Origin: Vulcanimicrobiota bacterium
GTDB taxonomy: Bacteria; Vulcanimicrobiota; Vulcanimicrobiia; Vulcanimicrobiales; Vulcanimicrobiaceae
Assembly: GCA_003161435.1 (NCBI GenBank)
Contig: PMOS01000024.1
Location: 155,601-219,600 of the forward strand
DNA length: 64,000 nt
Direction: 5' to 3'
The notes under the pieces: generated by a model
Databases searched by the model: none
Seen by the model: only the letters and a program-made list of their open reading frames with translations
What the model was told of the DNA's origin: nothing
Position numbers and translations under genes: made by a program
In this document: positions 6,578-23,439 of the stretch, in pieces
Layout of the letters: every line of letters begins with the position of its first letter
Position numbering within the stretch: position 1 is the stretch's first letter

Positions 6578-7576
6578 GTGCTGATGAGAGCGTCGTTCGA
6601 AGCGTTCGAGGCGTACCTCGAGCGCGCGGTCGAACAGCTCGACCAGACCTCGCCGGTCCGCTCGCTCGTGCGCGAGCACTTCGCCTTCGACGATCCCGGC
6701 GCGAAACGCGGGAAGCGGCTGCGCCCGCGAATCCTGGTTGCGGCCGCCGAAACCGAGGGGGCGCAGGGCGACGACGCGTTCCCCGCGGCCGCCGCCGTCG
6801 AATTGCTCCACAACTTCTCGCTCGTCCACGACGACATCGAAGATCGCGACGAGTTGCGTCACGGCCGGCCGACGCTGTGGGTCCGGCACGGCATTCCGGC
6901 GGCGATTACCGCCGGCGACGCGATGTGCGCGCTGTGCTACGTGGTCCTGCTCGACGAGCCGGCGCACTTCGACGCGCAGCGGATCGTCGCGATGACGGCC
7001 TGCCTGCACCGCACGCACTATGCGTTGTGCACCGGTCAAGGCGCCGATATCGGTTTCGAGACGTCGCCCTCGGTGACGTTCGCCGAATATCTGCAGATGA
7101 TCGAAGGCAAGACCGCGGCACTGTTCGCGGCGGCCTGCGAGCTGGGCGCGCTGGCGGCCGGCACGTCGCCGCAACGTGCCGCGGCGTACGGACGAATGGG
7201 CCGCGCGTACGGGCTTGCCTTTCAGGTGCGCGACGACGTGCTCGGAACGTGGGGTACGCCCGCCGAGACCGGCAAGCCGGCCGGCGCCGACATCCGCCGC
7301 CGGAAATGGTCCTTTCCGGTAGCCTGGGCGTTCGCCGAGCCGCGGTCAGCGGATCGTTCGATCGTCGCGGCGGCATACGCATCGATCGGCGAACTCGACG
7401 ACGCGCGTGCCGACGAGGTAATTGCGGCGCTCGAGCGGCTGGGCGCGCATCGTGCAGCCGACGATGCGTGCGATGCCTATGTCGCGCAAGCAGTCGCCGT
7501 CGCCGCCGAACACGACCTCGACCGCGACGGTCAGTTGGCCGAGATCTTCTCCTCAACCGCGCACCGCACGGTTTGA
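6578..7576 (+). CDS. Polyprenyl (farnesyl/geranylgeranyl) diphosphate synthase
   Basis: This 332-residue all-trans prenyltransferase condenses IPP with allylic diphosphates. The first aspartate-rich motif is VHDDIEDRD, followed by RHGRPTLW. The second motif reads QVRDDVLGTWG; its last Asp is replaced by Gly, as in many actinobacterial-type family members, and GKPAGADIRRRK follows. GTG at 6578 is one base after the hpnH stop (ATG at 6584 is the alternative). As the last gene of the hopanoid run it most simply makes farnesyl diphosphate for squalene synthase. Chain length cannot be fixed from the sequence. Confidence 0.88.
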   Translation: MLMRASFEAFEAYLERAVEQLDQTSPVRSLVREHFAFDDPGAKRGKRLRPRILVAAAETEGAQGDDAFPAAAAVELLHNFSLVHDDIEDRDELRHGRPTLWVRHGIPAAITAGDAMCALCYVVLLDEPAHFDAQRIVAMTACLHRTHYALCTGQGADIGFETSPSVTFAEYLQMIEGKTAALFAAACELGALAAGTSPQRAAAYGRMGRAYGLAFQVRDDVLGTWGTPAETGKPAGADIRRRKWSFPVAWAFAEPRSADRSIVAAAYASIGELDDARADEVIAALERLGAHRAADDACDAYVAQAVAVAAEHDLDRDGQLAEIFSSTAHRTV

Positions 7577-7611
7577 CCCGCGCTACGAAGCGCTCCGCGA
7601 CCAAAGCCTCG

Positions 7612-7645
7612 TCATGCTGTCGCCCCTCGACAAGCTCAGGGTGAC
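7612..7645. repeat. Dispersed palindromic repeat between hopanoid and phenylacetate genes
   Basis: The stretch begins GTCATGCTGTCG, continues CCCCTCGACAAGCTCAGGG and ends TGAC. CCCT and AGGG arms can pair, and outer GTCA/TGAC ends also match. It is the most complete copy of the element in the window. Confidence 0.75.
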
Positions 7646-7672
7646 GGGGAGGGGGTGGGCGTAGTACCCGGC

Positions 7673-8953
7673 ATGATCTTTCAGCCGGAGTATGAGACGC
7701 TCGAACGGCATGCGCTGGAGGCGCTCCAGTTCGAGCGGCTGCAAATGCTGGTCGAACGGCTGCGGCATTCCAATGCGATCTACCGCGAGCGGCTGCGCGG
7801 TATCGAGAACCCTGGCTCGCTCGAAGATCTCGCCGGCTTGCCGTTCAGCACGAAAGCCGATATGCGCGATGCGTATCCGCTGGGGCTGCTGGCGGTCCCG
7901 GAGGCGCAGCTCGCGCGCATCCACGCTTCGTCGGGGACGACCGGCAATCCGACGATCAGCGCCTACACGAAAGAAGACTTGCGCATCTTCGGCGAGGTCA
8001 TGGCGCGCAGTTTCGCGGCGGGCGGAATCGCGCCGGGCGATATGTTCCAGGTGGCGTGGGGGTACGGGCTGTTCACCGGCGGGCTCGGCGGTCAGGCCGG
8101 TTGCGAGACGCTCGGCGCATGCGCGATCCCGGCGTCGAGCGGAAACACCGCGAGGCAGATCCAGCTGCTGTGCGATCTGCCGGTCGTCGGGATCGGCTGC
8201 ACGCCGTCCTACGCGCTCGTGCTCGCCGAGCGCATCCGCGCCGAAGGCCGCACGACCAAAGTGCTGCGCTACGCGATCTGCGGAGCGGAATCGTGGACGC
8301 GCGAGATGCGCGCGGAACTCGAAGAGCTGTTCGGCGTCGTCGCGACCAACATCTATGGGTTGACCGAGATCATCGGCCCCGGCGTCGCGCAAGAGTGTCT
8401 CCAGAAACAAGGTCTGCACGTCCAAGAGGATCATTTTCTGGCCGAGATCATCGATCTCGATACCGGCAAGCCGCTCGCCGACGGTGAGCGCGGCGAGCTG
8501 GTGATCACGACGCTCACGCGCGAAGCGATGCCCGTGCTGCGCTATCGCACGCGCGATCTGACCTCGATGGTGCGCGAGCGGTGCGCCTGCGGCCGGACGA
8601 GCGCGCGCATCGACTGGTTCACCGGGCGCGTCGACGACATGTTGGTGATCCGCGGCGTGAACGTCTTCCCATCGGCGATCGAGGAGGTCGTGTTGGGCTT
8701 CACCGAGCTTTCGCCGAACTATCGCATCTTCGTGGACCGCCCGCGGAACGGCCTCGACGCGATGCTGGTCGAGGTCGAGCATCATCCGGACGCGACGATC
8801 GACGATCTCGACTTGCTCGCTCGCCGCGTTACCGGGCGGCTCTCGGAAACATTGCTGGTCTCGCTCGAGACAAGAGTTGTCCCGCCCGGGACGATCGAGC
8901 GAATCGAGGCCGGAAAAGCGAAACGCGTCATCGATCGGAGACCAGCACCATGA
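7673..8953 (+). CDS. paaK: Phenylacetate-CoA ligase-like adenylate-forming enzyme (PaaK family)
   Basis: About 426 residues, the normal PaaK length. PaaK activates phenylacetate or a related aryl acid with ATP and CoA in the cytoplasm. The AMP-binding P-loop is HASSGTTGNPT, followed by NIYGLTEIIGPGVAQEC and the motif YRTRDLT with a cysteine pair (CACGRTSAR). The hinge region GRVDDMLVIRGVNVFPSAIE leads to the C-terminal domain. ATG at 7673 gives the family-typical N-terminus MIFQPEYETL; an in-frame GTG at 7655 lies nearer the purine run GGGGAGGGGG. The stop overlaps the next start as ATGA. Confidence 0.88.
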   Translation: MIFQPEYETLERHALEALQFERLQMLVERLRHSNAIYRERLRGIENPGSLEDLAGLPFSTKADMRDAYPLGLLAVPEAQLARIHASSGTTGNPTISAYTKEDLRIFGEVMARSFAAGGIAPGDMFQVAWGYGLFTGGLGGQAGCETLGACAIPASSGNTARQIQLLCDLPVVGIGCTPSYALVLAERIRAEGRTTKVLRYAICGAESWTREMRAELEELFGVVATNIYGLTEIIGPGVAQECLQKQGLHVQEDHFLAEIIDLDTGKPLADGERGELVITTLTREAMPVLRYRTRDLTSMVRERCACGRTSARIDWFTGRVDDMLVIRGVNVFPSAIEEVVLGFTELSPNYRIFVDRPRNGLDAMLVEVEHHPDATIDDLDLLARRVTGRLSETLLVSLETRVVPPGTIERIEAGKAKRVIDRRPAP

Positions 8954-9702
8954 GCGATATCATCCTCACCGAGCGGCCCCACGAGCACGTCGCACTGGTG
9001 CGCTTGAACCGGCCGAAGTCCCTCAACGCGATCTCGAACGAGCTGTTCGAGCAGCTCGTCATCGCGCTGGAGACGCTCGCCGCGGACGGCGTCACGCGCG
9101 CCGCCGTCATCACCGGCGACGCACGCGCGTTCGCAGCCGGCGCCGACATCGCCGAGTTCGCCGCCGCCCGGCCCCAGCTGGAGATGTGGGATCGCGTCTG
9201 GTCGCTCGAGCTTCCAACGATCGCCGCAGTCAACGGCCTCGCCCTGGGCGGAGGGCTCGAACTCGCAATGTCGTGCGACCTCATGGTCGTCGCAGAAGAT
9301 GCGCGGCTCGGGCAGCCCGAGATCAACCTGGGGGTGATGCCCGGCGCGGGCGGGACGCAGCGGCTGACCCGGGCGGTCGGCAAGACGCTCGCCACCGAGA
9401 TGGTGCTGCTCGGGCGCGAGCTGAACGGCCGTGAAGCGGAACTGCACGGACTCGCCAACCGGGCGGTCCCGGCAGAGCGCGTCGTGCCGTTCGCAATCGA
9501 GCTCGCGCGGGCGCTGGCAAAGCAGCCGCCGCATGCGGTGCGCGTCGCGAAGCGGGCGATTGCGCGGTCCTTCGAAGGCTCGCTGCACGCCGGGCTGCTC
9601 GACGAGCGGCAGGCGTTCTACGGTTTGCTGCAGACCGAGGACGCGCGCGAGGGCATCGCCGCCTTCGTCGGCAAACGCAAACCGACATGGAGCGGACGAT
9701 GA
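8950..9702 (+). CDS. paaF: Enoyl-CoA hydratase (crotonase family, PaaF-like)
   Basis: This 250-residue crotonase hydrates trans-2-enoyl-CoA in beta-oxidation-type pathways. Both catalytic glutamates of true hydratases are present, in GGGLELAMSCD and GQPEINLG, followed by PGAGGTQRL. The oxyanion-hole region is FAAGADIAEF. It overlaps the ligase by ATGA and the next crotonase gene by ATGA, so the three are translationally coupled. The paa symbol rests on context; any short enoyl-CoA could be its substrate. Confidence 0.88.
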   Translation: MSDIILTERPHEHVALVRLNRPKSLNAISNELFEQLVIALETLAADGVTRAAVITGDARAFAAGADIAEFAAARPQLEMWDRVWSLELPTIAAVNGLALGGGLELAMSCDLMVVAEDARLGQPEINLGVMPGAGGTQRLTRAVGKTLATEMVLLGRELNGREAELHGLANRAVPAERVVPFAIELARALAKQPPHAVRVAKRAIARSFEGSLHAGLLDERQAFYGLLQTEDAREGIAAFVGKRKPTWSGR

Positions 9703-10490
9703 ACGACCCGATCGATCACCGCGTCACGGTCGCGGACGGGGTCGCAACGATCGCCTTCGCACGTCCTCACGCGTACAATGCGCTGACGGCCGACCTTTTG
9801 GACTCACTGCTCGGCACGCTCAAGACGCTCGAACGCGACGCGTCGGTGCGGGCGATCGTCATTACGGGCGACGGGAAAGCGTTCTGTTCGGGCCAAGCTC
9901 TCGACGACGTGAAGACCGTGCCGCCCGGTGGCGCGGCCGACCTCGCGAACACGATCGAGCGCCGTTACAACCCCTTGATCGTCAAGTTGCTCACCATCGA
10001 GAAACCGGTGATCGCCGCGGTGAACGGCGTCGCCGCGGGCGCGGGGATGGGGATCGCCTGCGCTTGCGATTTCCGGATCGTCGCGCAGACCGCGTCGTTT
10101 ACGACGACGTTCGTGAAGATCGGCCTCGTTCCTGACAGCGGGCTTTCGTTCACGCTCCCGCGCATCGTCGGTTACGCAGCGGCTCTCGAGCTCTGCATGC
10201 TCTCGCAGAAGATCGACGCCGCGCGCGCGGACGCGCTCGGCTTATGCACGCGAGTCGTGGCCGCCGAACGCTGCCTGGAAGAAGCGCAGACCTTGGCCGC
10301 GACCCTCGCTCGCGGACCTCGTTCACTCGGCCTCATCAAGCGCGAGCTCGCCCGCAACGGCCTCGGCGACATCCAAGCCGCGCTCTCCTACGAAGGCCAT
10401 CTCCAAACGATCGCCGGCGCCACGGACGACTTCGCCGAAGGCCTCGCGGCTTTCGCGAACAAGCGCGTTCCGGAATTTCGCGGGACTTAG
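9699..10490 (+). CDS. paaG: Crotonase-family isomerase, PaaG-like (oxepin-CoA forming)
   Basis: This 263-residue crotonase differs from its neighbour. The first hydratase Glu is Gly (AGMGIACACD) and the second is also missing. Instead it has the Asp of the isomerase subgroup in KIGLVPDSGLSFTLPRIVG, matching PaaG, which converts 1,2-epoxyphenylacetyl-CoA to oxepin-CoA. FCSGQALDDVK forms the oxyanion region. ATG at 9699 overlaps the previous stop; an upstream in-frame ATG at 9687 is less likely. The epoxidase genes paaABCDE and the ring-opening paaZ are not in this window. Confidence 0.83.
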   Translation: MNDPIDHRVTVADGVATIAFARPHAYNALTADLLDSLLGTLKTLERDASVRAIVITGDGKAFCSGQALDDVKTVPPGGAADLANTIERRYNPLIVKLLTIEKPVIAAVNGVAAGAGMGIACACDFRIVAQTASFTTTFVKIGLVPDSGLSFTLPRIVGYAAALELCMLSQKIDAARADALGLCTRVVAAERCLEEAQTLAATLARGPRSLGLIKRELARNGLGDIQAALSYEGHLQTIAGATDDFAEGLAAFANKRVPEFRGT

Positions 10491-10495
10491 CCACC

Positions 10496-10529
10496 CCGCC
10501 GCCTCGCCTCTCTAACGAGGAGTCGGCGG
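10496..10529. terminator. Hairpin between convergent genes, possible two-way terminator
   Basis: CCGCCGCCTCG (10496-10506) can pair with CGAGG plus CGGCGG (10516-10529) around a short loop, with a 3-base bulge. It sits where the crotonase operon and the opposing secreted-protein gene meet. There is no T-tract, so it is a weak call. Confidence 0.4.
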
Positions 10530-10922
10530 ATTCTGCGGAATCCACGTTTCGACGCTGAGGGTCACGTGCGCCGTGTCGCGCGGCGACGCTTCGACGTACC
10601 AGCCGCTAACTTCGACATGGCGCATTTCGTACGAATATGCTCCCACCTCGCGCAGCATCGCGGATGCGATCAGGCGATGCTGGTGGGACAAGCGGGTAAA
10701 CACGCCCAGATCACCGCGCCGCGACAGCGTGAGATAGACTTTCGTAACGTGTCCCCACGGTGAAGGGACGTTCCCACCGAACGACGTCAGGCGAATCGTC
10801 CCAGTTTCCTGCGAGGCGAACGTCGTCAGCCGGTCAGGTGGTGCGGGCGCTGCACGGACCGCGCCGCAATAGCCGAGCGTGACGACGCAGCAGGCAAGTG
10901 TAGCCGCAAACCGCGAGATCAC
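10512..10922 (-). CDS. Small secreted protein of unknown function
   Basis: This 136-residue protein starts with GTG at 10922 and has a Sec signal peptide (basic start, then ATLACCVVTLGYCGAVRA, with cleavage likely after AVRA or AAP). The mature part is rich in beta-strand residues, with no cofactor or catalytic motif I recognise; it ends VETWIPQNPPTPR. It faces the crotonase operon tail to tail, and the thiolase gene ends about 20 bases upstream of its start on the same strand, so it may be co-transcribed with the thiolase. I cannot assign a function. Confidence 0.65.
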   Translation of the reverse strand: MISRFAATLACCVVTLGYCGAVRAAPAPPDRLTTFASQETGTIRLTSFGGNVPSPWGHVTKVYLTLSRRGDLGVFTRLSHQHRLIASAMLREVGAYSYEMRHVEVSGWYVEASPRDTAHVTLSVETWIPQNPPTPR

Positions 10923-10943
10923 GTCGTCGCCGTGGCGATGCCT

Positions 10944-12137
10944 CTAGAGCCGTTCAAAGATGGTCGCGATTCCTTGGCCCATGCCGATGCACATGGTGGC
11001 GAGCCCGTAGCGCGCGTTGCGGCGTTTGAGCTCGTGGAGGAGCGTCGTCGCGATGCGGGCGCCACTGCACCCGAGCGGGTGCCCGAGCGCGATCGCGCCG
11101 CCGTTCACGTTGACGATGGCCGGATCGATCCCCAGTTCTTTCACGCACGCGACGCTCTGCGCGGCGAATGCTTCGTTCAGTTCGACGAGATCCAAGTCGG
11201 CGATGCTGAGCTTCGCGCGTTCGAGCGCCTTGCGCGTGGCGCCGATCGGGCCGATCCCCATGATGCTGGGATCGACACCGAACGTTGCCGAGGTCACAAC
11301 GCGCGCCATCGGCTGCCAGCCGTACCGCTGCGCCGCTTCCTCACTGCAGATCAGCAGGGCCGCGGCGCCGTCGTTGAGCGGCGAGGAGTTGCCGGCGGTC
11401 ACCGTGCCGTTCTCCTTGAAGACCGGCTTGAGCTTGGCCAGCGTTTCCATCGTCGTGTCCGGGCGCGGCGGCTCGTCGTGCGTCACCTCGTAGCTCTTCT
11501 TTCCTTGGTCGACGTGCACGGGGATGAGCTCCGCGTCGAACCGGCCGGCGTCGATCGCCGCCTTGCATTTCATCTGGCTCTGGTAGGCGAACACGTCTTG
11601 GTCGTCGCGGCTCACGCCGAACTGTTCGGCCACGTTCTCGGCGGTTTCACCGAGCGAGATCGGCGGGTACATCGCGGCGAGGCGCGGGTTGACCATGCGG
11701 TTCCCGAGCGTCGTATCGTGGATGTCGGGCGCCCGGTCGTAGGCTTTCTCCGCCTTGAGGATCACGAACGGCGCGCGCGTCATCGACTCCGCTCCACCCG
11801 CGATCGCGACTTCGATCACGTCGGCCGCGATCGCGTGAAAGGCGGAGTTGAGGGCCTGAAGGCCGCTGCCGCACAGCCGGTTGAGGGTCGTGCCGGGGAC
11901 GCTCGACGGCAGGCCGGCCAAGAGCGTTGCCATCCGGGCCGCATTGCGGCAGTCCTCGCCCGCCTGGTTGGCGGCGCCCCAGAAGACGTCGTCGATGGCC
12001 GCCGCGTCGACCCCGGTGCGCACGACTAGGGCACGAATCGCGAAGGAACCCAGATCGTCGGGCCGGACGGGTGCGAGCGCGCCGCCATAACGGCCCATGG
12101 GGGTGCGGAGGGCGTCCACGATTACTGCCTGAGCCAT
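10944..12137 (-). CDS. Acetyl-CoA acyltransferase (thiolase, PaaJ/PcaF type)
   Basis: This 397-residue thiolase cleaves 3-oxoacyl-CoA with CoA. The nucleophilic cysteine is in NRLCGSGLQA, the His motif is NGGAIALGHPLG followed by CSGAR, and the second active-site cysteine is in CIGMGQG. Family length and motif spacing are intact. It is encoded on the strand opposite to the PaaK/PaaF/PaaG genes, yet is close enough to finish the same route by cleaving 3-oxoadipyl-CoA; a general fatty-acid thiolase is the alternative. Start is ATG at 12137. Confidence 0.9.
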   Translation of the reverse strand: MAQAVIVDALRTPMGRYGGALAPVRPDDLGSFAIRALVVRTGVDAAAIDDVFWGAANQAGEDCRNAARMATLLAGLPSSVPGTTLNRLCGSGLQALNSAFHAIAADVIEVAIAGGAESMTRAPFVILKAEKAYDRAPDIHDTTLGNRMVNPRLAAMYPPISLGETAENVAEQFGVSRDDQDVFAYQSQMKCKAAIDAGRFDAELIPVHVDQGKKSYEVTHDEPPRPDTTMETLAKLKPVFKENGTVTAGNSSPLNDGAAALLICSEEAAQRYGWQPMARVVTSATFGVDPSIMGIGPIGATRKALERAKLSIADLDLVELNEAFAAQSVACVKELGIDPAIVNVNGGAIALGHPLGCSGARIATTLLHELKRRNARYGLATMCIGMGQGIATIFERL

Positions 12138-14465: not shown

Positions 14466-15137
14466 ATGCCCGCGACTATCGGGACGCTGCCGTACCTGTT
14501 GCTGCTCCTCACCGTCGTCGCCGGCGCGGTCGACGCGGTCAGCTTCCTGTCGCTGGGACATGTCTTCGTCGTCAACATGACCGGCAACATCGTGTTCCTT
14601 GGATTCGCCGCAGCCGGCGTGACCGAGATCTCGCTGACGGCAACTCTCGTTGCTCTCGGCGCGTTTCTGTGCGGTTCGGTCTTAGGCGGACGGCTGGCGT
14701 TGCGGTTCACCGGCGCGCGGCTGGTCACCATAGCGACAGTGGTCAAGATCGCGTTGATCGCCGCCGCACTCGTCGTCGTCGCGGCATCCCACGGGGCAAT
14801 CGCCACCGCGCACCGTGACGCGGTCATCGCGCTGCTCGCGTTCGCGATGGGCACGCAGAACGCGTCGGCGCGGCGCATCGGGATCCCCGACCTGACGACG
14901 ACCGTCCTGACGATGACGCTCACCGCCATCGCGGCGGATTCAACGCTCGCCGGCGGCACGAACCCGCGCTGGACGTGGCGCGCGCTCTCGATCGGATCGA
15001 TGTTGGTGGGCGCGTTCGCCGGCGGCCTCTGCGTGCTCCACCAAGGCGTCGCCGTGGCGCTTGGCCTCGTCCTCGTGCTGCTCGTCATCACCGGGCTGCT
15101 CGCGCGCTTCGCGTTCCGCCCGACCGCGGACGTCTAG
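14466..15137 (+). CDS. DUF1275 (YoaK-family) membrane protein
   Basis: This 223-residue protein has about six predicted membrane segments. It shows the DUF1275 hallmarks: GAVDAVSFLSLGHVFVVNMTGN near the N-terminus, FAMGTQNASARRIG mid-protein, and TTTVLTMTLTAIAAD. The biochemical role of the family is unknown; transport has been suggested. ATG at 14466 is five bases after the monooxygenase stop, and the gene end overlaps the convergent Ldh_2 gene by four bases. Confidence 0.83.
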   Translation: MPATIGTLPYLLLLLTVVAGAVDAVSFLSLGHVFVVNMTGNIVFLGFAAAGVTEISLTATLVALGAFLCGSVLGGRLALRFTGARLVTIATVVKIALIAAALVVVAASHGAIATAHRDAVIALLAFAMGTQNASARRIGIPDLTTTVLTMTLTAIAADSTLAGGTNPRWTWRALSIGSMLVGAFAGGLCVLHQGVAVALGLVLVLLVITGLLARFAFRPTADV

Positions 15138-16228
15138 CTCAGCCGCGGAACCGGCTCGATACCGAGGTCCTCGGCGAGCTGGTCGAGGTCGGCGATCACC
15201 GGAGCGATGAGCGGGATCCCGTCACGGCGGAATGCGATCTCGTTCTCGTGCTCGATCTCGCCGGCGACATAGACGCGGCCTTGCCCGGGCACGGGCGCGC
15301 TGTCCTTGAACGTGCGCAGCTCGCGATCCATGTCGCGCTTGAAATCGGCGATGTCGCGCATCGCATCGATGCGAATCGCACCGAAGAAGTGCGACGTAAT
15401 TCCGGACGGCGACGTGAGGCTCTCGGCGACGGTGAGCGCGGTCCCGAACCAGCCGCCGGCAAGCACGCCGGTGAGAATCTCGGCGAGGGCACCTAAGCCA
15501 TAGCCCTTATGGCCGCCGCCGTCGGTGCCGAAGCCGCCTAGGGGCAAGAGCGAACCGCCACCGTGGCGCACCGCTGGGTCGTCAGCCGGATTTCCCTCGT
15601 TGTCGACCGCCCAGCCAGGTTTGAGCTTGAGGCCTTTGCGCTCGTAGACTTCGAGCTTGCCGTAGGTGACCGTGGTGGTCGCGAAGTCCAGCACGAACGC
15701 GGGCTCGTTGCCGGCGGGGATCGCGTAGGCGAACGGATTCGTCCCCTGCATCGGCGTGCGCCCGAACGTCGGCACGGCGAAGTGCGCCGAGTCGGTCGAG
15801 CAGATGCCGATCATGTCGTGCTCGAGCGCCATCATCGCATAGTAACCGGCGATCCCGTAGTGGTTCGAATTCCGCACTGCGGCGAACGCAATCCCACGGC
15901 CCCGCGCCTTCTCGATTGCCCGCGTCATCGCGAGGTGCGAGGCTGGATGGCCGAGCCCGTTTCCCGCGTCGAGGAGCAACGACGTCGGCGTCTCGCGCAC
16001 GACCTCGTAGGCCGGTCGCGCCGCGATCCGCCCGTTGCGAATGCGATCGACGTAGAACCACCGCAACCGCGCGACCCCGTGCGACTCGATCCCGCGCCGA
16101 TCCGCCGCGACCAATACCTCGCCGACGATCCGCGCCGGCTCGGCGTCGACGCCGACGGTCGTCAAAGACCGCTCGACGAAGTTCTTCAGGCCAGCCTCGG
16201 GGACGCGAACGGTATCCGTCGGACTCAC
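15134..16228 (-). CDS. Ldh_2-family (malate/L-lactate/ureidoglycolate) dehydrogenase, copy 1
   Basis: This 364-residue NAD(P)-dependent oxidoreductase belongs to the YlbC/ComC/Ldh_2 family, unrelated to ordinary Rossmann LDH. Motifs include GIESHGVARL with the catalytic His, RNSNHYGIAGYYAMMA, FGRTPMQGTNP and GHKGYGLGALAEILTG. It oxidises 2-hydroxyacids or reduces 2-oxoacids. Start is GTG at 16228. It is the last gene of a long minus-strand run and lies 36 bases after a close paralogue; the two look like a tandem duplication that diverged in the middle and C-terminus. The substrate is not predictable. Confidence 0.87.
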   Translation of the reverse strand: MSPTDTVRVPEAGLKNFVERSLTTVGVDAEPARIVGEVLVAADRRGIESHGVARLRWFYVDRIRNGRIAARPAYEVVRETPTSLLLDAGNGLGHPASHLAMTRAIEKARGRGIAFAAVRNSNHYGIAGYYAMMALEHDMIGICSTDSAHFAVPTFGRTPMQGTNPFAYAIPAGNEPAFVLDFATTTVTYGKLEVYERKGLKLKPGWAVDNEGNPADDPAVRHGGGSLLPLGGFGTDGGGHKGYGLGALAEILTGVLAGGWFGTALTVAESLTSPSGITSHFFGAIRIDAMRDIADFKRDMDRELRTFKDSAPVPGQGRVYVAGEIEHENEIAFRRDGIPLIAPVIADLDQLAEDLGIEPVPRLS

Positions 16229-16264: not shown

Positions 16265-17365
16265 TCACACCGTGAATCTCGAGAGCTGCGCGATCTTTAG
16301 GCGCTCCGCGAGCGCGTCGAGCGTTTCCCAAACACGTTCGTTGATTGGGACGCCTTCGCGGCGGAAGCGCTCGGTGTTCTCGCGTTCGGGGGTGCCCGCG
16401 ACCATGACCCGTTGCGAACCTGGGACCGGTGCGCTTTGCTCGAATGTTTGCAACTCGCGATCGAGGTCGCGGCGGAACGCGGTTTCATCGCGCAGCGCGC
16501 CGACGCGGAACGCGCCGAAGAAGTTGCCGACGATTCCGCCATGCATGCCGGTTTCTGGGACGTCGGCGGCCGCGGCAAACAAGCCGCCCGACAGGACGCC
16601 GCACAGAATGTCGACGAGCGCCCCCAGGCCGTAACCCTTATGACCGCCGTTGTCGGTGCCGTAGCCGCCGAGCGGCAACAGTGCGCCGGTCGTCTTTGCA
16701 GCCACCGGATCGAGCGTCTCACGGCCCTCGGCGTCGACCGCCCACCCGGGTTTGAGCTGCTTTCCTTTGCGCTCGCTGACTTCGAGCCGGCCGAACGTGA
16801 CGCCGGTCGTCGCCATGTCCAGGACGTACGGCGGGTGCTCACCGGCGGGGATCGCGACGGCGATCGGGTTCGTCCCGGTCGTCTTCTTCGCGCCGAATGT
16901 CGGGACGGCGAGATGGGTCGAGTTCGTCATCGACAGCCCGATGAGGCCGTGCTCGAGCGCCATCATCGCGTAGTATGCCGCGATCCCGTAGTGGTTCGAG
17001 TTCCGCACGGTTGCAAACGCCAGCCCGTGCTCACGCGCTTTGCCGATCGTCTTGCGCATCGCGAACTTTCCGGCGGGATGGCCGAGCCCGTTACCGGCGT
17101 CGAGCGCGAACTGCGTCGGCCGGTCGGCGAGCGTCGTGTACTCCGGCTGTGCGTTCACCACGCCGGCCTCGATCCGCCGCACGTAGAACGTCTCGAGCCG
17201 CGCGATACCGTGCGACTCCACGCCGCGCAGATCGGCCGCGACGAGAACGTCCGCGACGTCGCGCGCGTCGGATTCGCGCACGTTCACGGCCGTCAGCGCG
17301 CGCACGATGAAGTCGTGCTCGTCAGCCTCCCACGCGCGGATCTTCGACGGCTCCTCACCGATCAT
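16265..17365 (-). CDS. Ldh_2-family dehydrogenase, copy 2
   Basis: This 366-residue paralogue of the downstream gene shares GVESHGIARLETFYVRRI, RNSNHYGIAAYYAMMALEHG, KKTTGTNPIAVAIPAG, GYGTDNGGHKGYGLGALVDIL and a matching C-terminus (GTPERENTERFRREG). Its N-terminus has extra residues (IGEEPSKIRAWEADEHDF). ATG at 17365 directly abuts the stop of the macro-domain gene. Two paralogues side by side suggest different 2-hydroxyacid substrates or a heteromeric enzyme. Confidence 0.87.
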   Translation of the reverse strand: MIGEEPSKIRAWEADEHDFIVRALTAVNVRESDARDVADVLVAADLRGVESHGIARLETFYVRRIEAGVVNAQPEYTTLADRPTQFALDAGNGLGHPAGKFAMRKTIGKAREHGLAFATVRNSNHYGIAAYYAMMALEHGLIGLSMTNSTHLAVPTFGAKKTTGTNPIAVAIPAGEHPPYVLDMATTGVTFGRLEVSERKGKQLKPGWAVDAEGRETLDPVAAKTTGALLPLGGYGTDNGGHKGYGLGALVDILCGVLSGGLFAAAADVPETGMHGGIVGNFFGAFRVGALRDETAFRRDLDRELQTFEQSAPVPGSQRVMVAGTPERENTERFRREGVPINERVWETLDALAERLKIAQLSRFTV

Positions 17366-17905
17366 TCAAATGCACGGACCTTTCGCAGACACCTGAACCA
17401 AATCCATGACCCTCAAGCCGCGGAGGGCTTCCTCGTACGCGGCGATATTCTCCGTGTCCATGAGGCACACGACGATCTCATCGAACGCGTCTTCGTTGCG
17501 TCGCATGGCCTCCACCGCGATCTGGGCGGCCGGGCGCTTCGGGTACCCGTAGGCGCCCGTCGATATCGCGGGAAACGCGATCGTTCGGATATCGCCCCGT
17601 TCGCGCGCGATGCGAAAGACGCTCTTGTAGGCGTGCTCGAGCAGACTCGGCTCCGAGAACCCCGCTCGCCAGATCGGCCCGACGGTATGAATGATCCAGC
17701 GTGCCGGCAGCCGATGGCCTTTCGTCAATATGGCGCTCCCTGTCGGGAGCCGCGAATATTGCATGCACTCTTGAAGGAGCGCGGGGCCGGCTTCCCGGTG
17801 GATGATGCCATCGACACCGCCGCCGCCCCGGAACGCTTCGTTCGCGGCGTTTACGACGGCATCTACCTGCGCAGCGGCAATGCTCGTTCGAACAACGGAA
17901 ATCAT
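17366..17905 (-). CDS. Macro-domain protein (O-acetyl-ADP-ribose deacetylase/YmdB type)
   Basis: This 179-residue single macro domain binds or hydrolyses ADP-ribose derivatives. The signature VDAVVNAANEAFRGGGGVDG is near the N-terminus, then IIHREAG, WIIHTVGP, and IAFPAISTGAYGYP in the phosphate-binding loop. It sits between the E2 gene (six bases away) and the Ldh_2 pair (abutting), inside an operon of NAD-dependent dehydrogenases. A link between NAD-derived ADP-ribosyl metabolites and 2-oxoacid oxidation is an attractive inference. Confidence 0.9.
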   Translation of the reverse strand: MISVVRTSIAAAQVDAVVNAANEAFRGGGGVDGIIHREAGPALLQECMQYSRLPTGSAILTKGHRLPARWIIHTVGPIWRAGFSEPSLLEHAYKSVFRIARERGDIRTIAFPAISTGAYGYPKRPAAQIAVEAMRRNEDAFDEIVVCLMDTENIAAYEEALRGLRVMDLVQVSAKGPCI

Positions 17906-17911
17906 TCGATG

Positions 17912-18814
17912 TCAGCCGTCGGCTCGGTCGGCCGCATGAGCGAGCTGCTCGACGACTGTCGCGAGCAACTGATCGGCGGCGTACTCGTCGTAGTGCGCCC
18001 GGTCGTAGCAGAGCGCTAGCCAACAGCGGCCGTCGACGATCGCGCCGGGCGCGAGAATGACCGGCTCGCCCGGGGCGACGAGGGGGAACGCCAGCAGCGT
18101 GCCCGTGGCGCCAACGTTCGTGACGGTTGCGGCGGCACCGCCGACATCGACGGCGGTGAGCGCATTGCGGCGCGCTCGGTCGGCGAGATCGGCGATCCGC
18201 ACACCGATGTCGTGTATCGAGGCGTCGCGCGAGTCGGGGATGACCGGGACGACGAGGCCGCCGGGAACCTCGACCGCGATCCCGATGCGATCGGCTTCCA
18301 GCGCTTGTGCGAAGGCCTTCACGAAGAATGCCGTCCACGTCACGCCGTGGCGTTCGATCGCGCTCAGGTCGACCTGCCGTGCGCACGAGCCCTGCGCGAT
18401 CGTCGCGCGTGCCTCGGTCATCCGCTCCGCGATCCGCTTGCGCATCGGAGTGAGGCCGCCGTTCGAGCTGCCGGCCGCCGGCGCGATCGGGCGCGAGACA
18501 GCGGTGTGCTCGCCGGGCGCGCTCGTGTGCGGCGACGACGCGATCGGCGGCGCTTCGACCGTTGCGGCGCCGGCGAAGCGCGCGAGGAGTTGGCCGACCT
18601 CGGCGCGCTCGCCCTCGGCGACGAGGATCTCGGCAAGGACACCGTCGTGAGGTGACTCGACGTCGGTGTTCACTTTGTCGGTTTCGACCGCGAACAGCGG
18701 CTCGCCGCGCCTGACGCGATCGCCCGGTCGCTTATACCACGCCGAGACGATACCGTCGACCAACGTATCGGCGAGGCGCGGAAACTCGATGTCCACCTGC
18801 GATCCGGTGCTCAC
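17912..18814 (-). CDS. Lipoyl-bearing E2-like protein of a 2-oxoacid dehydrogenase, catalytic His replaced
   Basis: This 300-residue protein has a lipoyl domain (lipoyl Lys about residue 47 in VETDKVNTDVESP), a proline/alanine linker (about 85-115) and an acyltransferase-like domain from PMRKRIAERM to the C-terminus. It is short for E2 (usually above 400 residues), and I see no peripheral subunit-binding domain. The catalytic motif, normally DHRxxDG, reads DRAHYDE here, so the active His and the DG are lost, while the GIAVEVPGGLVVPVI segment is intact. Start is GTG at 18814. Acyl transfer may depend on the E2-like domain fused to E1-beta next door. Confidence 0.83.
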   Translation of the reverse strand: MSTGSQVDIEFPRLADTLVDGIVSAWYKRPGDRVRRGEPLFAVETDKVNTDVESPHDGVLAEILVAEGERAEVGQLLARFAGAATVEAPPIASSPHTSAPGEHTAVSRPIAPAAGSSNGGLTPMRKRIAERMTEARATIAQGSCARQVDLSAIERHGVTWTAFFVKAFAQALEADRIGIAVEVPGGLVVPVIPDSRDASIHDIGVRIADLADRARRNALTAVDVGGAAATVTNVGATGTLLAFPLVAPGEPVILAPGAIVDGRCWLALCYDRAHYDEYAADQLLATVVEQLAHAADRADG

Positions 18815-18946
18815 GCGGTTTCGTTCGGCCCAGATCGCCTGGTTTCCGGCGTCGGAACGCTCGTTTATTCCGGTCGCCGCAGCGCGATGAAAACGGATTT
18901 CGCCACGAAGATCAGCAGCAACACGCTACGGCGGGAATTTGTGCGG

Positions 18947-18971
18947 TCCCCTTTCGACAAGCTCAGGGGAA
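18947..18971. repeat. Dispersed palindromic repeat upstream of the E2 gene
   Basis: TCCCCTTTCGACAAGCTCAGGGGAA. CCCCT (18948-18952) pairs with AGGGG (18965-18969). It lies in the 222-base gap between the E1-beta fusion and E2 genes, the largest gap of this operon. Confidence 0.75.
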
Positions 18972-19023
18972 CGCCGCGAATCGGCTTCCGCGACGACCGA
19001 TTGTGACTCGGGTTGATCGTTCG

Positions 19024-19045
19024 CCCTTCGACGAGCTCAGGGTGA
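19024..19045. repeat. Dispersed palindromic repeat supplying the stop codon of the E1-beta fusion
   Basis: CCCTTCGACGAGCTCAGGG followed by TGA. Read on the minus strand, the element gives CACCCTGA, whose TGA (19039-19037) ends the E1-beta-E2 gene. Confidence 0.75.
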
Positions 19046-20503
19046 CATTGGGATGGTCGCTCGTCGGTCGAGACTTGGGGTTGCGCGCTTCTGCTCGGCG
19101 GCGGACTTGAACGCGGCGAGGAAGCGACCGGCGTCGGCACCGTCGACCGCGCGGTGGTCGACGGCGCATGCGACGTACGCACGGCCGTTACGGACGGCGC
19201 CGATTCGTACCGCGGCGGTTTGGCCCGGGCGGACGAACGGGATCGCGAGATCGCTGCCGTCCGGACCGTAGTCGACCAGGGTGATCGTACCGCGGCCCGC
19301 GGCCGGTGATGCGGGACCGAGGTCGAGATCGACGACGACATCTTCGTGCTCGACGATCCCGGTCCACGCAAAGGTCGCGTTGCAGCGTGGCACGGCGCGC
19401 GCTGCGCTGACGAGTGCGTCGAGCGCAACCCGCGTATGCTCCGGCGACAGCGCGACTTCGATCAGGCTCGAAGCCTGCGGGATCCCTGGATCGTAGGCGC
19501 GTGCCGCGACCCCGGCGCGGGTTCGTTCGCGCGCAACCAAGTGCACGAGCGCGTCGCGGATCGTTGCGCGGTTCGGCAGAACCGCGTCCTCCAGGTTGTC
19601 GTCGACCGGTATTCCGGGGATGTCGGGCATCGCGACGCGCACCGGCGGAACGTCGAGCACGTCGGCCTCGGCGGCCAGCGCGCACAGCTCCGCGCCAAGC
19701 CCCATCGTGACGGTGTCTTCGTGCACGACGCACAGCCGGCGCGTCTTGGCCAGCGACGCCAGGATCGTTTCGCGATCGAGCGGCAACAGCGTCCGCAGGT
19801 CGACCACCTCGACGTCGATCCCTTCGGCGGCGAGCGTCTCGGCGGCGGCAAGCGATTCGTGCAGCATCATGCCGTACGCGAGCACCGTCGCGTCTCGGCC
19901 TTCACGCGCGATCGACGCTTTGCCGATCGGCACGACGTAGTCGCCTTCGGGAACCGAACCGCGAATCGCGCGGTACGTGCGCTTGTGCTCGAGCACGAGC
20001 ACGGGATCCGGGTCGCGGATCGCCGCGAGCAGCAAACCCTTTGCGTCGGCGGGAGTCGACGGGGCCACCACCTTGAGCCCGGGCGCGTGCGCGTAGAACG
20101 CTTCGACGCTTTGCGAGTGGTATGGTCCGCCGCGAAAACCACCGCCGTACGCGGTCCGCAGCACCATCGGACACGACCAGTCGCCGCCGGTCCGCCAGCG
20201 AATCTTCGCCGCTTCACCGACCAGATGATCCATCGAGGCGTGGATGAAGTCCGCGAACTGGATCTCCGCGACGGGCCGCATCCCGCGCATCGCGAGGCCG
20301 ACCGTCACGCCGGCGATCACCGTCTCGGCCATCGGCATGTCCACGACGCGCTCGGCACCGAAGCGGTCGAAGAGTCCCTCGGTCGCGCGGAAGACGCCGC
20401 CGAGCTTTCCGATATCTTCGCCGAGCAGAATCACGCGCTCGTCGCGCGCCATCTCGTCGCCGAGCGCCTCGCGCACCGCCTCGATCACCGACAATTCACG
20501 CAT
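19037..20503 (-). CDS. 2-oxoacid dehydrogenase E1-beta fused to a compact E2 catalytic-like domain
   Basis: This 488-residue protein joins two parts. Residues 1-327 are a normal E1-beta of the pyruvate/branched-chain type: LLGEDIGKLGGVF, DMPMAETVIAG and EIQFADFIH. Residues about 341-475 resemble a shortened E2 acyltransferase domain: IPQASSLIEV, a strand-helix part, GTITLVDYGPDG, and the complete catalytic motif DHRAVDGADAGRFL at 449-462. It has no lipoyl domain and lacks the GIAVxxPxGLxVPVI segment. Ordinary E1-beta ends near residue 330. ATG at 20503 overlaps the E1-alpha end by eight bases. The separate E2 has the complementary set of motifs. The stop lies in a dispersed repeat, so the C-terminal tail may be recent. 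Confidence 0.85.
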   Translation of the reverse strand: MRELSVIEAVREALGDEMARDERVILLGEDIGKLGGVFRATEGLFDRFGAERVVDMPMAETVIAGVTVGLAMRGMRPVAEIQFADFIHASMDHLVGEAAKIRWRTGGDWSCPMVLRTAYGGGFRGGPYHSQSVEAFYAHAPGLKVVAPSTPADAKGLLLAAIRDPDPVLVLEHKRTYRAIRGSVPEGDYVVPIGKASIAREGRDATVLAYGMMLHESLAAAETLAAEGIDVEVVDLRTLLPLDRETILASLAKTRRLCVVHEDTVTMGLGAELCALAAEADVLDVPPVRVAMPDIPGIPVDDNLEDAVLPNRATIRDALVHLVARERTRAGVAARAYDPGIPQASSLIEVALSPEHTRVALDALVSAARAVPRCNATFAWTGIVEHEDVVVDLDLGPASPAAGRGTITLVDYGPDGSDLAIPFVRPGQTAAVRIGAVRNGRAYVACAVDHRAVDGADAGRFLAAFKSAAEQKRATPSLDRRATIPMSP

Positions 20504-21455: not shown

Positions 21456-22625
21456 CTATTTGGCGACGGTGAACTTGCCGTTGTCGACTTTGGTCACGAC
21501 CAGCGAGTCGCCGGAGAGCCCGTTGTGGTCGGTCGGCGAGATGCGGAAGGTTCCGGTGACGCCTGAATAGGTCGTGTGCTCGATCGCGTCGCGCAGCTTG
21601 GCCGCGTCGGAGCTCTTGGCGCGCTCGAGCGCATCCTTGATGATGTAGACGCTGTCGTAGCCGAAGCCGCCGAAGATGCTGACCGCGCCGTCCTTGGGAT
21701 AGGCCTTGAGGAAGTCGCCGATGTAGTGGGTGAGGATCTTCTTCTGCGGATCGCTGTTGGGCAGCAGGTCGGCGACGTTGATCTTGGTGCTCACGATGAA
21801 CGCCCCGTTGAGCGCCGGGCCGGCTTGGGTCAAGAAGATCCCGGTCGCCGAGCCGTCGGAATAGTAGATCGGCGGCGTGAGCCCGAGCTCGCGGTAGCCT
21901 TTGATGATGACGCCGGCCGACGGCAGCGTCGTCCAAGCGACGATCGCCTGCGGCGCGGCGGCCTTGGCGTGGGTGAGCTGCGTCGTCGCATCGCTAGCCG
22001 TTGAGGCGATCGCGTCCGCCGAGGCGACCTCGAAGCTCTTGCCGTCGGGCGCGTCTTTGAAGTGCTGCAGGCCGGTCTTGCCGTAGTCGTCGTCGCGATA
22101 GATGAACGCCAGCTTCGTCTGCTTCTGCTTCTTCATGTAGGCCTGCATCGCAGTAGCGACGTGCGTGTCGGTGATCGGCATCTTGAAGACCCACTTGTGA
22201 TCGGCGACCGGCTCGATCACTTGCGCGCTCGAGGCGAGCGAAATCAACGGGATCGACGCCGCCTGAGTCAGCGGGATCATCGCGAGCGAGGTCTGAGTGA
22301 GCGAGGAGCCGATAATCACGATCGGATGCTTGTCGATCAGCTGACGGACGGCGTTCACCGCGGTCGTGGCCTGCGACTCGTCGTCGATGATCTGGACCTG
22401 CAGGGGATGCCCGCTCACGCCGCCGGCCTTGTTGATCTCGTCGACTGCCATCTGGACGCTATCGGCTTCGGGCCGCCCGAGCGACGAGCCGGGGCCACTC
22501 TCCGAGAGGACCGCGCCGATCAAATACGGTTCGTTCGCCGCGCTTGCCGAACGTGGCGGAGTCGCCGAGACGACCAGGAACGCGGCGAGCGCGAGTGCTC
22601 CGAGACGGACGATCGTCGAATGCAT
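21456..22625 (-). CDS. livK: Branched-chain amino acid ABC transporter, substrate-binding protein
   Basis: This 389-residue Leu/Ile/Val-type periplasmic binding protein has a Sec signal (LGALALAAFLVVSATPPRSASA). It then has YLIGAVLSESGPGSSLG, the cleft motif VIIGSSLTQTSLA and AFIYRDDDYGKTG, all typical of the LivK/HAAT family. ATG at 22625 is the best start; AAGGAGG lies 16 bases upstream, which is long, and TAGATATAT sits directly before the ATG. It is 73 bases downstream of livF and 12 upstream of E1-alpha. Confidence 0.9.
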   Translation of the reverse strand: MHSTIVRLGALALAAFLVVSATPPRSASAANEPYLIGAVLSESGPGSSLGRPEADSVQMAVDEINKAGGVSGHPLQVQIIDDESQATTAVNAVRQLIDKHPIVIIGSSLTQTSLAMIPLTQAASIPLISLASSAQVIEPVADHKWVFKMPITDTHVATAMQAYMKKQKQTKLAFIYRDDDYGKTGLQHFKDAPDGKSFEVASADAIASTASDATTQLTHAKAAAPQAIVAWTTLPSAGVIIKGYRELGLTPPIYYSDGSATGIFLTQAGPALNGAFIVSTKINVADLLPNSDPQKKILTHYIGDFLKAYPKDGAVSIFGGFGYDSVYIIKDALERAKSSDAAKLRDAIEHTTYSGVTGTFRISPTDHNGLSGDSLVVTKVDNGKFTVAK

Positions 22626-22698
22626 ATATCTACCAGGCCTCCTTATGATCATTGCACCGGGTGATTTCTTCGGGGGTCCCGGTTCACCCGCGGAGGCA

Positions 22699-23439
22699 TC
22701 ATGCCCCCGCCAGATAGACACGGCGGGCCGAACGCGCGAGCTCGTCCGAAGTCTCGGTCCCGACGATTCGGCCGCGCTGCATGAGATAGGCGCGTTGACA
22801 GATCCGCGCCGCCAGCCGCAGGTTCTGCTCGACCAGCAGAATCGTCACCCCGCGCTCGGCCAGCCGGGCGAGCGCGCCGAAGTTCTCGGCGCGCACCTTG
22901 GGCGCGAGGCCCAGACTCGGCTCGTCGAGCAGCAACAGCTCGGGCTTAGCCATGAGCGCGCGGCCGATCGCGACCATCTGCTGTTCGCCGCCCGACAGCG
23001 AGCCGGCGATGACATCGCGGTAGCGCACCAGCGGCGGAAACAGGCCGAACACGTCATCCAGGTCCGCTTCGAGCTCGGCTCGCTTCGCGCGACGCGAGTA
23101 CGCGCCCATCATGAGGTTCTCGCGCACGGTCAACGGCGCGAAGATTCCACGGCGCTCGGGAACCAAGGCGACGCCGCGCGTCGCCAAGCGCTCCGGCGAG
23201 TAGCCGGTCACATCGACGCCGCCGATCCGCACGCGACCGGATTTCGGTGGTACGAGTCCGGTGATCGAACCAACCAACGTGGTCTTCCCGGCGCCGTTGG
23301 GCCCGACGATCGCCACCGTTTCGCCGCGGTTCACGGTCAAGCTGACGTCCCACAAGACTTGCACGCGCCCGCGAATGGTCGAGATGTTCTCGACTTCGAG
23401 GACGGGCGTGTCCTGCGCGTTGCGCGCCGGTGAGGTCAT
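22699..23439 (-). CDS. livF: Branched-chain amino acid ABC transporter ATPase LivF
   Basis: This 246-residue ABC ATPase has Walker A GPNGAGKTT, signature LSGGEQQM, Walker B LLLLDEPSLGLAP and the switch His region LLVEQN. VPERRGIFAPLTVRENL before the signature is typical of LivF. It overlaps livG by four bases. Confidence 0.93.
   Translation of the reverse strand: MTSPARNAQDTPVLEVENISTIRGRVQVLWDVSLTVNRGETVAIVGPNGAGKTTLVGSITGLVPPKSGRVRIGGVDVTGYSPERLATRGVALVPERRGIFAPLTVRENLMMGAYSRRAKRAELEADLDDVFGLFPPLVRYRDVIAGSLSGGEQQMVAIGRALMAKPELLLLDEPSLGLAPKVRAENFGALARLAERGVTILLVEQNLRLAARICQRAYLMQRGRIVGTETSDELARSARRVYLAGA

Follow-up and report, generated by a model that had tools for sequence, protein, structure and literature searches.

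A 2-oxoacid dehydrogenase locus with an E2 active site possibly divided between an E1-beta fusion and a His-less lipoyl-E2

Locus organisation and domain content

In 2-oxoacid dehydrogenases the E2 component forms the core of the complex and holds the whole transferase site. A locus is described here in which that site may be divided between two proteins. It lies in a stretch of 64,000 nucleotides (referred to below as the window; positions 155,601 to 219,600 of contig PMOS01000024.1, assembly GCA_003161435.1) from a Vulcanimicrobiota bacterium, the source genome being a metagenome-assembled genome that is close to Candidatus (Ca.) Eremiobacterota and 83% complete. Genes for E1-alpha (P0003, 20496..21443; PF00676 E1_dh, 221 bits), E1-beta (P0001, 19037..20503, 488 residues; PF02779, PF02780 and PF00198) and a lipoyl-E2 (P0002, 17912..18814, 300 residues; PF00364 and PF00198) adjoin one another, and all three, with the motifs and domains given for them below, are on the minus strand. 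The E1-beta is 84-90% identical to those of five loci labelled Ca. Eremiobacterota or WPS-2. Other genomes (G), contigs of the source genome (C) and loci (L) are referred to by our working identifiers.

Up to about residue 315 the E1-beta is a normal Transket_pyr and Transketolase_C protein, which is then followed by a tail of about 150 residues. The initial annotation had read this tail as a compact E2 catalytic core with an intact DHRAVDG, and Pfam, a profile search and a structural model all agree with that description. Residues 405-470 match PF00198 (2-oxoacid_dh) with 33 bits (cut-off 23; E 5.4e-8), and a profile built from ten tails retrieves E2 catalytic cores from the PDB (best E 2.2e-11). 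Structure prediction of the tail alone gave a confident E2-like model (predicted local distance difference test, pLDDT, 90.2; predicted template modelling score, pTM, 0.86) from an alignment that included three ordinary E2 rows, which may favour an E2-like fold. All 50 of the PDB matches listed by Foldseek for this model are E2 proteins, two of them integrative models and one an engineered E2p nanoparticle. The compact catalytic-core fold, which corresponds to the His half of an E2, spans residues 337-472 (19088..19495), and DHRAVDG is found at residues 449-455 (19139..19159) with its His at position 450. No lipoyl domain was matched on the E1-beta at E<=1.

A pair of repeats (18939..19042; units 18939-18968 and 19013-19042) is located between the E1-beta and E2 genes, and it had been considered whether the tail is a chance extension created by the repeat near 19024. 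The tail aligns with E2, and it is not repeat-made because the only part of the E1-beta gene touched by the second unit is nucleotides 19037-19042, its final sense codon and stop. The E1-beta ends of some relatives do carry repeat-like residues (CHPELVEG in L012, HPELV in L023 and TLSLSKG in L024), which would fit a continuing erosion of the 3' end of the gene by elements of this kind.

The separate E2 has a lipoyl domain (PF00364, E 2.9e-17; residues 7-80, 18575..18796) with the lipoyl Lys47 in ETDKVN, and a catalytic-core-like domain (PF00198, E 1.9e-24, 86.9 bits; residues 119-292, 17939..18460) that is without the P..N segment in a joint alignment. Within the latter domain are an IGIAVE strand (18269..18286), a GGLVVPVI motif (18239..18262) and TVTNVG (18110..18127), which aligns where E2s have their Ser/Thr (Ser551 in Escherichia coli E2p). 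Where DHRxxDG is expected the protein reads YDRAHYDE (17984..18007), and the earlier description of a lipoyl-bearing E2 lacking its catalytic His is therefore correct for this gene, with Arg at the His place. The same replacement was observed in all 15 readable E2s of this kind, referred to here as split E2s (13 aligned, and those of G514 and G387). The lipoyl Lys, GL[VIL]VPV and TNVG are each present in 13/13 aligned split E2s. A mere shift of the His by two places was also considered and rejected, as the His of YDRAHYDE occurs in four of the 13 and the other nine have R, K, A, S or E. A search for the E3_binding family, the peripheral subunit-binding domain (PSBD; PF02817), gave no match in the window E2 at E<=1.

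Reciprocal loss along the boundary between neighbouring E2 subunits

Joint alignments of tails and E2s show that the loss is reciprocal, each protein having what the other lacks, as the initial annotation had proposed. Both the P..N segment and DHRxxDG remain in the tails, the latter as VDHRA[VI]DG in 14/14 compact tails and as IDHRALDG in both readable tails of a fuller form described below (DHR in 16/16 overall). Absent from the tails are the GLVVPV motif together with the helices after it (approximately 36 residues) and approximately 19 residues further upstream, and a counterpart of the N-terminal helix is not recognisable. At the Ser/Thr place 13 of the 14 compact tails have Val or Ile, and two of the three fuller tails have Ala. 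Split E2s retain the lipoyl domain, the GIAV strand, GLVVPV, TNVG and the N-terminal helix, and are without the P..N segment (approximately 18-20 residues) and the catalytic His.

Where one E2 subunit ends and its neighbour begins at the active site has been published for two proteins. In E. coli E2p, H603' and D607' are contributed by the catalytic domain neighbouring the one that binds the lipoyl domain and forms its entrance, and S551 is unprimed (PMC8421416). In OdhA, coenzyme A (CoA) lies against Leu200, Ala201, Ile202, Leu257 and Thr258, and His316 comes from the adjacent subunit (PMC10415282). Alignment places these OdhA residues at the GLAI strand, LTN and DHR, which correspond in the window to IGIAVE (matching the CoA-pocket strand Leu200-Ala201-Ile202) and TVTNVG of the E2, and to DHRAVDG of the tail. 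As the OdhA sites map in this way, the lipoyl and CoA side is assigned to the E2 and the His side to the tail. Judged from these alignments, the losses in the tail and the E2 follow the published boundary between neighbouring E2 subunits.

Distribution, co-occurrence and selection

Searches covered 400 Chloroflexota genomes, 149 Eremiobacterota genomes and the 11 genus genomes, among them the source genome; the best candidates scored per genome were three in the Chloroflexota tail search, six in the Chloroflexota split-E2 search and up to 16 in Eremiobacterota. Loci L009-L013 come from genomes already present as five genus members, and each of these genomes entered the counts a single time. 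The domain pair, which it had been suggested should be sought in relatives, was found in ten of the 11 genus genomes and patchily in Chloroflexota. In those ten, own genome included, the E1-beta match reaches residue 470 or beyond; G121 (74% complete) has neither a tailed E1-beta nor a split E2. Outside the genus, no tailed E1-beta was seen in Eremiobacterota among the matches listed, and a second search returned the same ten genomes. These ten also hold the split E2, the next split-E2 match in this set being G019 at 6e-62.

The tail was matched at 65-67% identity in four of the Chloroflexota genomes (G149, G229, G514 and G530). The split-E2 profile matched 19/400 at E<=1e-60, and the five strongest of these, at E<=1e-103 (the same four and G387), all have a tailed E1-beta. 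The other 14 lie between 2e-61 and 3e-65; one is G315, which is tailed and whose E2 is cut at a contig end, and of the remaining 13 lower-scoring E2s, the seven that were read all keep DHR and the P..N segment. Class searches, in genomes that overlap the 400, found the tail in 3/110, 3/29 and 1/177 genomes and revealed no new carriers. In a plasmid search 822 records matched the E1-beta, none over 80% of the query, and a plasmid copy with a tail was not observed.

In one Chloroflexota class, three genomes (G315, G387 and G371; 3/29 searched) encode an E1-beta that is joined to a fuller E2 core, approximately 200 residues long. The contig of G371 is cut inside this core, and DHR is present in both of the fuller tails that can be read. 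The partner E2 of G387, which is the only fully readable one of the fuller form (that of G315 is cut before the His place), has a lipoyl domain, a PSBD (26.3 bits, cut-off 23.7) and a catalytic domain (141 bits), reads DRRAFDD and is without the P..N segment. Trees were drawn with a midpoint root. In the tree of the E1-beta core, a single branch (100/100) sets all 13 fused rows apart. In the E2-domain tree, one branch (100/99) does so for 12 tails and another (96/95) for ten split E2s, and the fuller forms are placed outside the compact ones for both tails and split E2s.

Purifying selection acts on the tail. Among the ten genus members (45 pairs each), the median ratio of non-synonymous to synonymous substitution rates is 0.211 in the tail, compared with 0.122 in the core of E1-beta; in the E2 it is 0.153 over the lipoyl domain and 0.226 over the core. 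The two linkers have medians of 0.68 (41 usable pairs) and 0.49 (44 usable pairs).

Proposed mechanism and alternative explanations

We consider it probable, at roughly 70%, that these genes encode a 2-oxoacid dehydrogenase complex whose E2 active site is divided between the E1-beta tail and the lipoyl-E2. A mixed interface between the two had been suggested initially, and reciprocal loss along the half-site boundary, co-occurrence across genomes and the existence of a less reduced form argue for it. The lipoyl-E2 would be acylated by E1, and its lipoyl arm would dock on the E2's own half-site, where CoA would also bind; the surface for lipoyl docking, the CoA pocket and the Ser/Thr-bearing flank of the channel would all belong to the E2. 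The tail, a chloramphenicol acetyltransferase (CAT) fold cut to one half, would lend the catalytic His and the Asp of DHRAVDG as a trimer neighbour does. Foldseek matches for the E2 part of a linked tail-E2 model are likewise of the CAT fold, and of the two CAT folds only one has the catalytic His. Tail and E2 would pair via the interface used by neighbouring subunits in an ordinary E2 trimer, with one working site per pair, and neither protein appears capable of full function by itself.

The E1 alpha2-beta2 would then carry the tail-bound E2, perhaps with no cubic or icosahedral core, and the complex may in this sense be core-less. The PSBD docks near the C-terminal domains of E1-beta, and the E2 could have dispensed with it because the tail would tie the E2 to E1. 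A more specific form of the proposal, to which we give even odds, is an obligate heteromer of two CAT half-enzymes. These would pair as the two chains of a pseudo-dimer and not as a trimer, and the complex would rest on the E1 heterotetramer without an E2 cage, a less reduced form surviving in Chloroflexota.

Several observations weigh against a divided site. A linked model of tail and E2 was poor (pLDDT 53, pTM 0.43) and no interface was visible in it. In a trimer built of two subunit types an even alternation is impossible. Thr is kept at the Ser/Thr place in the tails of L065 (one of 14 compact) and L062 (one of three fuller). G371 has a tailed E1-beta and no split-E2 match at E<=1e-60, its contig ending inside the tail, and the E2 gene is approximately 3 kb (L014) and approximately 13 kb (G514) away from that of E1-beta. 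In the tree of the E1-beta core the fuller form lies within the Chloroflexota compact forms (93/91), which contradicts the E2-domain tree. Lastly, E. coli E2o keeps 45% of its activity as Thr323Ala, 2.1% as His375Ala, 59% as His375Trp and 13% as His375Gly (PMC5986005), and it follows from these values that the Ser/Thr matters little and that a His-less E2 is not necessarily dead.

The activity of the Trp and Gly mutants, together with the lack of a PSBD match in the compact window E2, is also what would be expected if the His-less E2 alone were a sufficient, slower acyltransferase, with the transition state stabilised by residues other than the His, and the tail were a mere dock replacing the PSBD. 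We regard this as unlikely, since a mere dock needs no DHRxxDG, yet the motif is found in every compact tail and in both readable fuller ones. Furthermore, in the G387 E2 the His is gone while the PSBD is still present, which uncouples loss of the His from replacement of the PSBD.

It is less likely again that the pair no longer makes acyl-CoA and serves another acyl acceptor, or acts as a lipoyl carrier or regulator. The heavy reduction of the core, and the macro-domain and Ldh_2 genes nearby, leave room for other chemistry, but the parts needed for CoA transacylation persist: GLVVPV and TNVG throughout the 13 aligned E2s, the CoA-pocket strand in the aligned E2s and DHR throughout the compact tails.

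The initial annotation had also raised the possibility that another complete E2 of the genome is used with this E1. Complete E2s are indeed present, on C17, C44 and C29, and an E2 domain occurs in a long frame on C8; the four PSBD matches of the genome at E<=0.1 are on these same contigs, with none on C1, and no other E2 on C1 was among those listed in the own-genome search. The E2s of C17, C44 and C29 are each adjoined by their own E1-alpha and E1-beta genes, and the C8 E2 runs into an apparent E1o; with the tail under purifying selection and the E2 partner retained in the same genomes, it is very improbable that the tail is a degenerate relic of gene fusion and that this E1 employs a complete E2 from elsewhere in the genome.

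The C8 locus (L069, approximately 7545-12000) was read by eye as a lipoyl-PSBD-E2 frame and then the apparent E1o, with a masked stretch interrupting. Its E2 stretch scores 154 bits to KGD (phmmer), and it is OdhA/KGD-like but with its own lipoyl domain.

Relation to known systems

That no complex of this layout has been described was the view taken initially, and a literature search, mostly without reach into subscription papers, found none among the papers listed. The closest known system is OdhA, and what would be new here is a 2-oxoacid dehydrogenase with a divided E2. In the actinobacterial E1o-E2o fusion OdhA/KGD, an E2 catalytic domain is likewise carried on the E1 polypeptide and the lipoyl groups come from another protein (PMC10415282). 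However, the E1 of that fusion is of the single-chain, dimeric kind and is preceded at the N-terminus by a complete E2 domain, whereas the present protein is an E1-beta of the alpha/beta type with the His half only, at the C-terminus. OdhA has also retained canonical E2 trimers, in which each chain carries both the CoA pocket and the His (same source).

Canonical E2s (E. coli E2p and E2o, Azotobacter vinelandii E2p) share with this system the fold, the lipoyl domain, the CoA-pocket and DHRxxDG motifs and an intersubunit site. Each canonical copy holds both sides of that site, whereas here there is one side per protein and the PSBD is gone. The E3-binding protein (E3BP, or protein X) is without the catalytic His. 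Similar to the split E2, it is an E2-like protein with no known catalytic function (PMC8146983), but it accompanies a complete E2 and binds E3, and no complete E2 is present in this operon. Condensation domains of non-ribosomal peptide synthetases also have two CAT folds, with a catalytic HHxxxDG at the subdomain interface (PMC8097023); in these the halves are in one chain, whereas here they would be in two, one of them fused to E1-beta.

If the proposal is correct, an active site shared within a homo-oligomer would here have turned in nature into an obligate heteromer, with the less reduced form preserved, and the need of such complexes for an E2 core would become testable. Automatic annotation would label one of the two genes as E1-beta and the other as a dead E2.

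Gene neighbourhood and possible substrate

Downstream of the E2 gene are a macro-domain gene (17366-17905; PF01661, 134 bits) and two genes for Ldh_2 2-hydroxyacid dehydrogenases (16265..17365 and 15134..16228, both minus strand; PF02615, 372 and 374 bits), the macro-domain gene being located between the E2 and the first of these. On the other side of the locus is a Liv-kind periplasmic substrate-binding protein (21456..22721, minus strand; PF13458 Peripla_BP_6, 189 bits). The best NCBIfam match of the window Ldh_2 genes is L-sulfolactate dehydrogenase at approximately 219 bits, far under the cut-off of 500, and that of the binding protein is also far below its cut-off.

Genes for 2-hydroxyacid oxidation are near in several lineages: in addition to the two Ldh_2 genes here, L065 has an L-2-hydroxyglutarate oxidase match above the cut-off and L014 a GlcD-like oxidase below it. 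A Peripla_BP_6 binding protein is likewise found both in the window and in L065. At a guess, the substrate could be a 2-oxoacid derived from an imported 2-hydroxyacid.

In L014 the E1-alpha is in two open frames (9422-10286), possibly as the result of an assembly error. In L095 (G514), frames near the split E2, at approximately 5-15 kb, include what we take to be look-alikes of a GlcD-type oxidase, a 2-hydroxyacid dehydrogenase and an HpcH-type aldolase.

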